Assembly (NCBI GenBank): GCA_902801205.1
Contig: CADCHE010000010.1
Coordinates: 1 to 64,000, forward strand
Origin: an uncultured Bacteroidia bacterium
GTDB lineage: Bacteria; Bacteroidota; Bacteroidia; Bacteroidales; UBA932
DNA: 64,000 bases
Direction: 5' to 3'
Part shown: one piece after another, positions 33,687 through 40,686 of the stretch
How the letters are laid out: every line of letters starts with the position of its first letter
Numbering within the stretch: the first letter of the stretch is position 1
Notes under the pieces: model-generated
Database searches by the model: none
Seen by the model: only the letters and a program-made list of their open reading frames with translations
What the model was told of the DNA's origin: nothing
Program-made: the position numbers and the translations under genes

Positions 33687-36047
33687 ATGGCCATGACCAA
33701 CACCCTGAACAACCAGAAGAAGGATCAGGTCAACCTGGTGGACCTCTTCTTCTACCTGCTGCGCTACTGGTACATCTTCCTGCTGTGCATCCTCGTGGCG
33801 TGCGCCTACGCCTACTACCGCTACGAGAAGACGCCCTTCACCTACCGGAGCAGCGCGCAGGTCATCATCAAGAACCCAGCGAACTCCCCGACGACGACCA
33901 ACCTCGCCCGTTACAGCGAACTGATCAACCGGGTGAACCTGTCGAACGAGATGATGACCTTCCGTTCCAAGACCTTGATGGCCGAGGTCGTGAAGGTCCT
34001 CGACCTGGACGTCAGCTACACCGAGCACCAGCGGCTGCGCGATATCGAGCTCTACAACCGCACCCCGGTCAAGCTCTGGTTCTCGCGCCACGAGAACCCG
34101 CTGGAGAGCCTCTCCGTGAAGGTGACGCCCAAGGACGCCGAGACGCTCATCCTCGAAATCCCCGGCGAGAAGGCCATGCCCATCCATCCGGGCGACACCG
34201 TCACCCTGAGCGGCGTACCTGTCCTCTTCCAGCCGACGGGTTACTACTCCAATTTCCTGGGGCGGACCGTGCATATCAACAAAATTCCCGTGGCAAATGC
34301 CGCGGCCACTTTCTCCGGGCGCCTGACCGTCACACAGACCGACAAGCAGAATGCCGTCCTCACCCTTTCTGAACAGGATTTCTCCCTGCAGCGCGCCAAG
34401 GACATCCTCGTCACCCTCGTGGACAAGTACAACGAGGCCGCCGTGCAGGAGAAGGAAGACCTCGCCCGCAACACGGCGGAGTTCATCAACGAACGGCTCG
34501 CCATCATCGAGAAGGATCTCACCGACGTGGAGATGCGCCTGGCCAACTTCAAACGGACCCAGCGCGTCGTCGACGTCAATGCCGCGGCGAACAACTACCT
34601 GAATCAGAGCAACGCCGACCAGGCGGAAATCATCCGGACCGACACGAAGATCTCCCAGGCGGAACAGATCAAAGACTTCGTGCAGAATACCTCCTACGGG
34701 GAGATGATCCCGGTCCAGGCAAGTTTGGACAACAACGCGAGCGTAGACAAGGCCGTCGCCGAGTACAACGCGCAGGTATTGCGCCGCCGCGCCCTGGTGG
34801 ATGCCAGTAGCGAAAGCAGCCCGGCCGTCCGCGAGTTGGAGAGTTCGATGCAGGTGCTCAAGCAGAACATCGTCAGCAACATCGACAACCTGATCGCCAG
34901 CCTGAAGATGAACAAACGGGACCTGCAGCGCCACGAAAGCGAATCGCTGGAGAAGTTCTCCGCCATGCCGACCAAGGCGTTGGAGGAAGTCTCAATCGAA
35001 CGGCAGCAGAAGATCAAGGAACAGCTCTTCCTCTTCCTGCTGAACAAGCGCGAGGAGAACGCCCTGACCCAGGCCATGGTCGAGGACAACGCACGCATGG
35101 TCGACACGGCCATCGGCTCGTCCATTCCGATCTACCCGAGCAAGCAGCGAATGCTGCTCATCGCCTTCCTGATCGGCCTGCTGGCGCCCGCCGTCGTGCT
35201 GCTGGCCCGCCTGCTGCTCGACAACAAGGCCCGCACCCGCAAGGATATCGAAGACGCCGTCTCGATGCCGTTCATCGCGGAAGTACCGCTCAAGAAAGTC
35301 AAGCGGAGCGTGCGCAAAAAGAACAAAGGCATCCATCTCGCCTATGATCCCGAATCGAAGGGCCTCTTCACGGAGTCGCTCCGCATGCTCTGCACCGACC
35401 TCGAGTTCATGAAGCCGGAAGGCGTGACCAACACCGTCCTGGCGACGACGTCCATCACCATCGGCGCCGGGAAGACCTTCCTCACCACGAACATCGCGGC
35501 CTGCCTGGCCGACGCCCGCAAGAAGGTCGTAATCGTCGACCTCGACCTGCGCAAGCGGACGATCTCCGATTCGTTCGGCCTCAAGCACAAGGTCAACGGC
35601 CTGACCCACTTCCTGCTGGACGATACCCTTTCCATCACGGACATCATCCATCCGGACGTCATGCGCGGCGTCGACCTGATTCCCGCCGGGCACATTCCGC
35701 CGAACCCGGTCGAACTGCTCGGCCGCAAGCGTTTCGACAACCTGATCGAGGGCCTGCGCAAGGAGTACGACTATGTCCTGCTCGACTGCGTGCCGTTCAA
35801 CGCCGTGGCGGACCTGATGATCATCAACCGCGTGGTGGACATGAACCTCTTCATCGTCCGCAGCGGCCAGCTTGACCGTCGCGCCCTGCCGCTCCTGGAA
35901 GAGATCAACAAGAGCAAGAAACTCACGAACCCGGGCATCATCCTCAACGGTTCGGCCGTCCGCGCCAGCTACGGTTACGGCTATGGCTACGGCTATGGTT
36001 ACGGCTATGGCTACGGATACGGTTACGGATACGGAGAAAAGGAGTAA
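33687..36047 (+). CDS. Polysaccharide co-polymerase and tyrosine autokinase (Wzc-like, BY-kinase)
   Basis: This 786-residue inner-membrane protein controls chain length and export. A Wzz domain with TM1 (about 27-45) leads into a long periplasmic coiled-coil region and TM2 (about 488-510). The cytoplasmic BY-kinase domain has Walker A (TSITIGAGKTFLTTN, about 589-602), Walker A' (VVIVDLDLRK, about 614-622) and Walker B (VLLDCVP, about 695-700). Walker A has IGAGKTF in place of the common GEGKS form. The C-terminus is a run of 11 Tyr-Gly pairs, the autophosphorylation cluster. It is coupled to the Wza-like gene. Confidence 0.94.
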   Translation: MAMTNTLNNQKKDQVNLVDLFFYLLRYWYIFLLCILVACAYAYYRYEKTPFTYRSSAQVIIKNPANSPTTTNLARYSELINRVNLSNEMMTFRSKTLMAEVVKVLDLDVSYTEHQRLRDIELYNRTPVKLWFSRHENPLESLSVKVTPKDAETLILEIPGEKAMPIHPGDTVTLSGVPVLFQPTGYYSNFLGRTVHINKIPVANAAATFSGRLTVTQTDKQNAVLTLSEQDFSLQRAKDILVTLVDKYNEAAVQEKEDLARNTAEFINERLAIIEKDLTDVEMRLANFKRTQRVVDVNAAANNYLNQSNADQAEIIRTDTKISQAEQIKDFVQNTSYGEMIPVQASLDNNASVDKAVAEYNAQVLRRRALVDASSESSPAVRELESSMQVLKQNIVSNIDNLIASLKMNKRDLQRHESESLEKFSAMPTKALEEVSIERQQKIKEQLFLFLLNKREENALTQAMVEDNARMVDTAIGSSIPIYPSKQRMLLIAFLIGLLAPAVVLLARLLLDNKARTRKDIEDAVSMPFIAEVPLKKVKRSVRKKNKGIHLAYDPESKGLFTESLRMLCTDLEFMKPEGVTNTVLATTSITIGAGKTFLTTNIAACLADARKKVVIVDLDLRKRTISDSFGLKHKVNGLTHFLLDDTLSITDIIHPDVMRGVDLIPAGHIPPNPVELLGRKRFDNLIEGLRKEYDYVLLDCVPFNAVADLMIINRVVDMNLFIVRSGQLDRRALPLLEEINKSKKLTNPGIILNGSAVRASYGYGYGYGYGYGYGYGYGYGYGEKE
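35970..36035 (+). repeat. Eleven-unit hexanucleotide repeat encoding the Tyr-Gly tail
   Basis: Eleven consecutive 6-base units of the form TAY-GGN code for Tyr-Gly pairs at the C-terminus of the Wzc-like kinase. The units use TAC/TAT and GGC/GGT/GGA alternately, so the tract is imperfect at DNA level. Gain or loss of units would change the number of phosphorylatable tyrosines without a frameshift. Confidence 0.9.
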
Positions 36048-38790: not shown

Positions 38791-38888
38791 GTATGATGGA
38801 GTGAGGGAGGAAGGGAGTACCCTCCCAGAGGACTCCGTTCCGCTTCGCTCCACTCCCCTTTCCCAATTTCCCTTTTCACTTTCCCCTT

Positions 38889-39860
38889 TCACTTTCCCGC
38901 GGGGAAAAGGGAATCCACAACCAGCAGGTCCAATTTCAGGACCCGTCGGATCTGCTGATTCGAAGCATGATACTTATAATGGAGTGTCCGGGCGACCGCT
39001 ATTTTCTCATCAGGATCGAGCAGCGATGGCCGGTCTACCCTGTAGTCCCTTTGACTGATCATCCTGGCAACCGGGTATATTTCCTCGTCAGACAAGACAA
39101 CCAGATCCCCCAGCCGGCACGCTTCCTCACTGTATGCTTCCATATTCTTTGAAAGCGCGTAGAAGTAATGATGCGCATCACGGAACAGCGGTTCCCCAAG
39201 GTCAAAACGGATATAACTCGCCTGCTCGATCATGTCACCCCGAACGGTCAGGTTGTCCGGAAGCGAAATCCTGCTACGGAACGACAGTTTGCGCTTTTGG
39301 CGGAAAGGTATCCTATTGAAAACCGTCCCCAGCTTTCGTTGCGCTGAATAATTGAAGTACAATGCACCCCCGCTCCAAGGATAAGAATAGGGCGTGAACC
39401 TCCGATACGCAACAAACCCGTTTCGATGTATATACGCTATTTCGTTACGCACCATCTCCAGGCTGTCGACCGCGACAGGCTCGTCACACCGAAAGGAACC
39501 AAGGTCACAAAAACGACCGCCCGATTGTAAATGTTTCCGCAACCGGTAACGAAACAACTCGACGAAGCGAAAACAACCCGAACGCTCTCCAAGAAAAAGC
39601 GCATGGATATGGTTACTCATATGCGCATCAGTCAGCACGACAAGTCCTGCCTCCTCCGCACTGATCGCCATGTTGGAAACAGAAAAACGATAATCCCTTT
39701 CAGAAAGATTCAGCACCTCCGTCGATATCCCCGGAGTAAAGACATGCCAAACTCCCCCATATCGTTGAAGCAAAGCGTTAAAATGATCCGAACATCTTTT
39801 CTCCCGGTCAGAGAAAGAAACACCGCGCGAACTGGACGCATCTGAATAGAACTTATCCAT
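38889..39860 (-). CDS. Y1 (HUH) transposase, IS200/RAYT-like
   Basis: A 323-residue protein with the HUH motif in DAHMSNHIHALFL (His at about 84 and 86) and a likely nucleophilic Tyr at about 143 in RNEIAYIHRNGFVAY, followed by PYSYPWSGG, the order seen in REP-associated tyrosine transposases. A long C-terminal region contains a helical segment with NQQIRRVL that may bind DNA. I start at the ATG at 39860; an upstream TTG adds two residues. No accessory TnpB is present. The hairpin-repeat array at 39982-40547 begins 121 bases from its start, as expected if the array is made of elements this enzyme recognises. Confidence 0.75.
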   Translation of the reverse strand: MDKFYSDASSSRGVSFSDREKRCSDHFNALLQRYGGVWHVFTPGISTEVLNLSERDYRFSVSNMAISAEEAGLVVLTDAHMSNHIHALFLGERSGCFRFVELFRYRLRKHLQSGGRFCDLGSFRCDEPVAVDSLEMVRNEIAYIHRNGFVAYRRFTPYSYPWSGGALYFNYSAQRKLGTVFNRIPFRQKRKLSFRSRISLPDNLTVRGDMIEQASYIRFDLGEPLFRDAHHYFYALSKNMEAYSEEACRLGDLVVLSDEEIYPVARMISQRDYRVDRPSLLDPDEKIAVARTLHYKYHASNQQIRRVLKLDLLVVDSLFPAGK

Positions 39861-39981
39861 TACCAATACCTAACAACTACTATCTCACGCCACCGTGGCA
39901 ATGATGATCAAAAGTGCAAATAAAAAACGGAACTGACAAATGTTTCGGTCACATTTTCTCCTCTCTCAGCAGTTGAGCGAC

Positions 39982-40547
39982 CTCCCCGGGGTGCGCTGGA
40001 CAGGGGATTCGCACCGCAGATCCGCCGACGAGTCTCCCGGAGTGCAACAGGCCGAGGTTTTGCACCTCGGACCCGCTCGAGCAATTCCACAGGCCCGCCA
40101 ACGAGCTCCCCGGGGTGCGCTGGACAGGGGATTCGCACCGCTGATCCGCCGACGAGTCTCCCGGAGTGCATTAGACCGGGGATTTGCACCGCTGATCCGC
40201 CGACTGAAGTGCGCCCCGGAGTGCATCAAACCGAGGTTTTACACCTCAGGTCCGCTCGAGCAATTCCACAGGCCCGCCAACGAGCTCCCCGGGGTGCGCT
40301 GGACAGGGGATTCGCACCGCTGATCCGCCGACGAGTCTCCCGGAGTGCAACAGGCCGAGGTTTTGCACCTCGGACCCGCTCGAGTAATTCCACGAGCCCG
40401 CCAACGAGCTCCCCGGGGTGCGCTGGACCGGGGATTTGCACCGCTGATCCGCCGACGAGTCTCCCGGAGTGCTACAGACCGAGGTTTTGCACCTCGGACC
40501 CGCTCGAGTAATTCCATGAGCCCGCCGACAAGTCTCCCCGGAGACGA
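39982..40547. repeat. Array of alternating 52-bp (A) and 72-bp (B) hairpin repeats
   Basis: Nine full units and a partial one start at 39982 (A), 40034 (B), 40106 (A), 40158 (A-like), 40212 (B-like), 40285 (A), 40337 (B), 40409 (A), 40461 (B) and 40534 (partial). Each starts with C-T-C-C-C(C)GG and contains GTGC ... GCAC arms around a CCG(A/G)GG core, forming a hairpin. The arms change in a compensating way (GTGCG/CGCAC in A, GTGCAA/TTGCAC in B), which supports a folded structure. B units also hold CCGAGG/CCTCGG. The block lies between a Y1 transposase gene and the 3' end of a tRNA. No protein is coded; frames stay open only because the units lack stop codons. Confidence 0.9.
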
Positions 40548-40572: not shown

Positions 40573-40608
40573 GAAAAAAAACCCTCGTAGAAGGCAATCT
40601 ACGAGGGG
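40573..40608 (-). terminator. Terminator of the tRNA-Arg transcript
   Basis: CCCTCGTAGA (40582-40591) pairs perfectly with TCTACGAGGG (40598-40607). Reading on the minus strand, the hairpin is followed by a run of eight Ts (40581-40574), so it ends transcription coming from the tRNA gene. Confidence 0.85.
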
Positions 40609-40614
40609 CAAATG

Positions 40615-40686
40615 TAGTCCCAATAGGAATCGAACCTATATTTAAGGTTTAGGAAACCTCCGTTCTATCCGTTGAACTATGGGACC
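40615..40686 (-). tRNA. tRNA-Arg, anticodon CCU
   Basis: The minus-strand sequence folds as a cloverleaf: acceptor GGTCCCA with TGGGACT (one G-U), D arm GTTC...GAAC, anticodon stem GAGGT/ACCTT with loop TTCCTAA (anticodon CCT), and T arm ATAGG-TTCGATT-CCTAT. The discriminator is A, and CCA is not encoded. A terminator follows at 40573-40608. The upstream gene on this strand is rpmF. Confidence 0.9.

Follow-up and report, generated by a model that had tools for sequence, protein, structure and literature searches.

Between a Y1/HUH transposase gene and a tRNA-Arg gene, in the window (the whole 64,000-nt stretch of DNA analysed here, from a gut-type bacterium), lies a tandem array of nine repeat units at 39982-40533 with a short remnant behind it. 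Tandem Repeats Finder (TRF) recovers the array (scores 594 and 577) at the place, and with both of the neighbours, that an earlier sequence-only reading of this DNA had given. The features, in window coordinates, are as follows:

38889-39866, minus strand: Y1/HUH transposase gene, a putative divergent RAYT (TnpA-REP-like), from catalytic residues, an AF2 model and Foldseek
39867-39981, no strand: spacer from the transposase start to the array, read from the sequence
39982-40033, plus strand: unit A1, 52 nt, core 39991-40014
40034-40105, plus strand: unit B1, 72 nt, core 40042-40065
40106-40157, plus strand: unit A2, 52 nt, core 40115-40138
40158-40212, plus strand: unit A3, 55 nt, which interrupts the alternation, core 40166-40189
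40213-40284, plus strand: unit B2, 72 nt, core 40221-40244 with a single arm substitution
40285-40336, plus strand: unit A4, 52 nt, identical to A2, core 40294-40317
40337-40408, plus strand: unit B3, 72 nt, core 40345-40368
40409-40460, plus strand: unit A5, 52 nt, core 40418-40441
40461-40533, plus strand: unit B4, 73 nt, core 40469-40492
40534-40543, plus strand: remnant of a further unit, its first 10 nt only
40574-40607, minus strand: intrinsic-terminator-like hairpin and T-run of the tRNA-Arg gene, read by eye from the sequence
40614-40686, minus strand: tRNA-Arg (anticodon CCT), from ARAGORN and Rfam RF00005

The units, all in direct order, run A B A A B A B A B with lengths of 52, 72, 52, 55, 72, 52, 72, 52 and 73 nt; thus the two unit types described earlier are present, but their alternation is not strict, as A2 and A3 are adjacent. 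Each of the nine contains a GTG-N18-CAC core, a pattern met 0.12 times per kb in a 400-kb control drawn from this genome and related ones, and each has CGGG or CGGA directly 5' of that core. Measured from core to core the distances are 51, 73, 51, 55, 73, 51, 73 and 51 nt, and the unit sizes of 52 and 72 nt depend on the register chosen: units advance by 51 nt, or by 73 nt after a B unit, and the B type consists of the A framework with about 20 extra nucleotides. The array starts 121 nt from an ATG at 39860, the likely start of the transposase (115 nt from a TTG at 39866), and about 80 nt separate it from the 3' end of the tRNA-Arg, with the terminator-like hairpin in between. A CRISPR, which the sequence-only reading had rightly set aside, is ruled out, as the whole unit is repeated and there are no unique spacers; a coding repeat was also rejected, given that 52 plus 72 nt does not divide by three and that the open reading frames across the array fall in several frames on both strands. 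Two other tandem repeats occur nearby, a 13-nt repeat (TCCCCTTTCACTT, 3.3 copies) at 38854-38898, at the 3' end of the transposase gene, and a repeat on the hexamer GCTACG (11 copies) at 35968-36034.

In the transposase, H84 and H86 (the HxH motif), Y143 and N147 are invariant in all 29 aligned sequences (copies with stops left out). The window protein itself is unmatched in Pfam and NCBIfam at E 0.001, and REP_Tyr_transpos and Y1_Tnp are also unmatched at E<=1; at that same level 12 of 29 family members match NCBIfam REP_Tyr_transpos (NF047646; best 2.7e-8) and 13 match Pfam Y1_Tnp (PF01797; best 1.6e-5). An AF2 model built on the 29 sequences has a mean pLDDT of 91.6, and its best Foldseek match is 4er8, a REP-bound RAYT (probability 1.00, E 0.02, with none at 0.001). 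By profile and predicted fold the family thus appears to be a divergent RAYT, which bears out the RAYT-like identity first proposed for the gene. The model also has a mostly helical C-terminal domain of about 150 aa, whose Foldseek matches are short, helix-turn-helix-like and weak, none of them at E<=0.001 (for example the DeoR DNA-binding domain, probability 0.84 over 35 residues, E 1.1). When 295 genomes of the order were searched with a profile at E 1e-10, near-full-length relatives were found in the genome from which the window comes and in one other of its genus only, and eleven other genomes, one of them of the same family, matched over the catalytic part only. Two other settings for the gene were rejected: a defence system (three PADLOC families, JetB, Cas5 and Cas5b, matched one or two of the 29 members each at E 0.005-0.03, taken as chance) and a plasmid or phage origin (the protein is unmatched at E 1e-5 in plasmid and phage collections).

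The sequence-only reading had called the units hairpins with compensating arm changes, and here the evidence is weaker than was claimed. The arms of the window units could pair as GTGCG/CGCAC or GTGCAA/TTGCAC, but single-stranded folding with DNA parameters, on both strands of eight units (A4, identical to A2, was omitted) against dinucleotide shuffles, gave z-scores from +1.0 to -2.2; only B3 reached -2, and the other seven folded no better than shuffles. When the covariance of the arms was checked, one of six arm pairs was found to change on both sides and three were invariant, but the covariation is near chance, its score being reached by 51 of 500 shuffles. Because covariation is near chance and only B3 folds, we describe the window units as dyad-symmetric, with the hairpin as a candidate form. 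Across the wider family, 17 of 50 arrays have inverted repeats in their consensus unit above the level of mononucleotide shuffles (p<0.05), which is roughly seven times as many as expected but not universal. In the family of units found at the closest relatives of the window transposase, L043 and L054, 70 unique aligned units share GTGNGC-N15-GCNCAC, in which GTG and CAC are nearly invariant and the inner GC is less so; the fourth stem pair can form in half of the units only, so that both a single-stranded hairpin and a duplex dyad are compatible with them.

How far such arrays accompany related transposases was surveyed in 101 genomes, 51 of which, own genome included, have protein matches at E 1e-5. 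We examined 96 non-redundant loci, namely the window, a paralogue in its own genome, 89 further loci that were the best-ranked of at least 150 listed (the fragment G031:C39 was skipped), and five from a second search, from which seven duplicates were dropped and in which the named relatives are uncultured Bacteroidales or Bacteroidia MAGs, some of them from rumen or omasum by record. With L044 not counted, a flanking array with a score of at least 100 is present at 45 of 95 loci, and at 34 of 95 its period is 46-56 nt or a multiple thereof. The flank periods are 50 nt (6), 51 nt (29), 52 nt (8), 73-75 nt (4) and others (13). Self-comparison at lags of 30-90 nt gave the same picture, with 56 of 184 flanks self-similar and 47 of these peaking at a lag of 50-52 nt, whereas seven of 660 control pieces, which are plain genomic stretches not selected as intergenic, resembled themselves in this way, with a lag of 52 in two and of 74 in two; the excess recurs among weaker flanks. 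The control DNA contains arrays of 52 and 74 nt (L115 2316-2833, L116 19074-19428 and L121 5838-5974), which may be dispersed copies of other families.

A tree made by a quick method places the window protein with L043 and L054 (support 99). In this tree 29 of the 32 loci with 51-nt arrays fall in one part of 60 rows, a clustering that stands out against shuffles. Within the core clade, 22 of 61 loci lack an array by self-comparison (L028 among them has a TRF array), and an outer clade of 24 has a single 51-nt array. Where both flanks carry units, these are on the same strand at 11 of 14 loci, inverted at two and unrelated at one, and with the units of the window also direct, the suggestion that the elements occur in paired form, in the REPIN or BIME sense, is not supported. 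A super-period of two or three units stands clearly above the single-unit period in five of 24 long arrays, and strict A/B alternation was therefore rejected as a general rule. At L043 (1040-1660) a 12-unit array upstream of a gene that we take to be mqnE-like is built from two alternating unit types, with an identity of 0.62 at lag 51 and 0.89 at lag 102.

The sequences of the units behave quite differently from their spacing. In 630 pairs of array-bearing loci, with similarity judged at the shuffled 99.9% level, units are similar in three of three pairs at a tnpA identity above 0.60, in nine of 54 at 0.40-0.60 and in five of 573 below 0.40. The window units show no significant similarity to those of their closest relatives, L043 and L054, and one genome, G023, holds three transposases with three unrelated units. 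The pitch appears to outlive the unit sequence, because similar units are found mainly between close transposases while a pitch of 50-52 nt is far more widespread, and it is this sequence-independent pitch that is the surprising part. A short candidate motif may be common to the units, comprising a GC-rich tetranucleotide, A or G, TTT and often a G after it. In 32 units, one per locus with four near relatives dropped, its likelihood at width 8 is 61.6, compared with at most 51.7 in five dinucleotide-shuffled sets and at most 36.8 in six genomic sets, and it is above controls also at widths 12 and 16; since the controls had fewer random starts and the shuffled sets come close, we treat this motif as a lead only.

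Units are also found away from the transposase. The L054 genome has array matches on ten contigs besides the home contig, some of them at contig ends and possibly halves of one locus, and one being a single unit; the L043 genome has them on one. Steps between units in these two genomes are 50-52 nt in 60 of 62 cases (57 of them exactly 51), the other two being 41 and 48 nt, and no transposase was found beside the remote arrays in the available flanking sequence. The array of L063 has matches, some weak, on seven contigs of G023 besides its home and on seven contigs of G047, in which a home gene was not established. In the own genome of the window, BLAST at E 10 returned only short weak matches, one of them at C12:108717 (E 1.3), where a sequence-only profile also placed a unit (E 5.4e-5, a rough value). 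A second, degenerate unit lies 51-52 nt from the first, both contain GTG-N18-CAC, and the pair, which rests mainly on one unit and is the sole remote copy found in this genome, is intergenic and follows what is presumably a sugar-transferase-like gene. High copy numbers (over 100) were not seen in the own genome or in the four relatives' genomes searched.

The search for units elsewhere, which the sequence-only reading had proposed, thus gave remote arrays in relatives and one remote two-unit copy at home. That reading had held that a lack of copies elsewhere together with random arm mutations would speak against a REP-type unit; this is not what was found, because arrays occur away from the gene in relatives and a remote copy exists in the own genome. 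A difference in copy number, a check also proposed earlier, was looked for between two species at a syntenic site whose flanks are about 93% identical. About four units stand in tandem in G047, against two and a separate third in G023, but the site differs in other DNA as well, so that this is no clean whole-unit change.

The tRNA is not a constant neighbour. At 57 relatives' loci a tRNA is present at three, one of which is tRNA-Arg(CCT), and an array derived from or targeted to the tRNA was rejected on this count and because no tRNA lies at the locus of the sole DNA match outside the genus. None of the 18 relatives with at least 1 kb downstream of tRNA-Arg(CCT) has a tandem array there (L187, with 85 nt, was left out). 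Two distant transposases of the same superfamily do lie downstream of this tRNA, one at L177 (G017:C56), which is among the 18, and another, found separately, at L089 (G044:C12), with a 52-nt array in between. In same-genus relatives where the region could be compared, rpmF adjoins tRNA-Arg(CCT). The window copy is at a different site from its closest relatives, because the L043 and L054 transposases lie between genes that we take to be the mqnE-like gene and glnS.

Of the known systems, the 'REPtrons' formed by REP sequences and RAYTs are the nearest. According to the available parts of two sources (Quentin 2018, PMC6006769; Nunvar 2010, PMC2817692), these also have repeats on the flanks of a Y1 HUH transposase, a separate family for each transposase, with repeats elsewhere in some genomes. 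The present system differs in its direct tandem arrangement at a pitch of about 51 nt, in the lack of GT[AG]G directly 5' of the core in all 70 unique units of the L043/L054 family, and in its C-terminal domain of about 150 aa; a BIME or REPIN moreover contains two inverted REPs, whereas the units here are direct. The terms 'tandem' and 'array' do not occur in the accessible portion of the Quentin text (PMC6006769). In Pseudomonas fluorescens SBW25, as far as the accessible text goes, REPIN clusters lie beside each RAYT, and GI-GIII include tandem arrays in which two REP types alternate in a highly ordered way, with spacings of 112 and 72 bp (Bertels and Rainey 2011, PMC3116915). The part of PMC3733652 that was available also mentions REPs reiterated in tandem. 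Tandem REP arrays as such are therefore already known. The SBW25 arrays are, in that text, described for one genome, whereas the pitch reported here is common to unrelated arrays across many genomes of a genus, and the open-licence literature searched yielded neither a description of a family-wide pitch nor one of arrays of this sort from Bacteroidales. TnpA-REP subclass 2.6, by its published description in the available text of PMC6006769, resembles the present family in its occurrence in Bacteroidetes, its flanking 'atypical secondary structures' and its copies elsewhere, but has a median length of 179 aa rather than about 310 aa and the motif YIH[QN]NP rather than YxxRN.

The ends of IS200/IS605 elements carry two end hairpins in direct orientation, and most two-sided arrays here are likewise direct. 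An IS200/IS605 insertion sequence was nevertheless rejected, as near-identical mobile copies are absent and the gene is single-copy in its own genome, where the next match is 26% identical.

We propose that the units are probably the cognate recognition sites of the neighbouring RAYT-type single-stranded DNA transposase, forming a REP-like family that in this genome resides mostly at its home locus; the best reading is of a REP-like system whose units stand in direct tandem at a fixed pitch rather than as inverted pairs. The local amplification of REP-like elements tied to a RAYT-like transposase, as suggested from the window sequence, finds support in the arrays both beside and away from the transposases of relatives. 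The enzyme would recognise the dyad-symmetric core of each unit, as a single-stranded hairpin or as a duplex site, and would cut at a fixed distance from it, after which modules of one, two or three units would be re-joined in direct order. Such a process would account for tandem growth in whole-unit steps, for the super-periods of 102 and 153 nt seen in some arrays, and for units being seeded now and then at other intergenic sites. We infer such whole-unit cutting and joining, and with it the building of arrays by the transposase, from the class of the enzyme, the regularity of the steps, the super-periods and the presence of copies elsewhere; no cleavage site can be read from the array sequences. 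Counting against the proposal are the 22 of 61 core loci that have no array by self-comparison, the single 51-nt array in the outer clade, the fourth stem pair that only half of the L043/L054 units can form, the unlikeness of the window units to those of L043 and L054, poor folding, the restriction of palindromes to 17 of 50 arrays, the single remote copy in the own genome and the absence of a clean whole-unit change between species.

One possibility is that replication slippage or unequal recombination has multiplied a palindromic segment and that the transposase is a bystander. This would accommodate the variable copy number, the super-periods of two or three units in five of 24 long arrays, which slippage can also produce, the near absence of remote copies from the own genome and the 22 of 61 core-clade loci without an array by self-comparison. 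However, slippage gives no reason for a pitch of 50-52 nt common to arrays of unrelated units, for the strong enrichment of arrays beside this transposase family over control DNA, or for the copies elsewhere, and we regard passive expansion as distinctly unlikely. Transcribed hairpins, forming an array of structured RNA, are a still different reading; the units are able to self-pair as single strands, but the tRNA is the sole Rfam match at gathering score, seven of eight folded units do no better than shuffles under DNA parameters and covariation is near chance, so that the structured RNA mooted from sequence is, in our view, highly improbable.

It is also conceivable that the dyad cores are duplex binding sites of the C-terminal domain, with the array serving in autoregulation of the gene or in chromosome organisation and cutting being secondary. 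The half-sites GTG and CAC of the L043 and L054 units, nearly invariant with an inner position that is often mismatched, would suit a duplex operator, as would the poor single-stranded folding of the window units, the helix-turn-helix-like matches of the C-terminal domain (DeoR among them) and the position of the window array just upstream of the gene. However, those fold matches are weak, with none reaching E<=0.001, arrays are found on the downstream side of genes and at remote places as well, and helical phasing as a cause of the pitch is unsupported, with no phase coherence in the arrays of other periods (28 arrays, p 0.18-0.28). We consider a duplex operator array unlikely.

Within the preferred reading of the units as cognate sites of the transposase, we offer more tentatively, as an idea that could well prove wrong, that the enzyme measures off a fixed length from the dyad core, about 51 nt and, in places, 73-75 nt. 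The geometry would be kept while unit sequences are replaced wholesale as specificity changes; the spacing would be conserved, with perhaps only the motif of a GC tract plus TTT shared, and arrays would gain and lose one to three units at a time. Many diverged pairs of enzyme and array, at roughly one pitch in one genus, amount to a natural experiment, in which the measuring rule of the enzyme and its sequence specificity can be studied apart, and in which cognate pairs lend themselves to exchange and in vitro assay. A 2021 abstract (PMC8266576) describes the mechanism of REP dissemination as poorly understood.

The own genome of the window holds two further genes of this kind. A second Y1 transposase, 26% identical to that of the window, is at G000:C2:124539-126197 (L012, L173, L174), with a 73-nt tandem array of 4.5 copies on one side and a 92-nt piece, about one unit, on the other; further copies of its array unit were not found in this genome at E 1. 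A third and more distant Y1-like gene lies at G000:C8:100743-101135 (L228).
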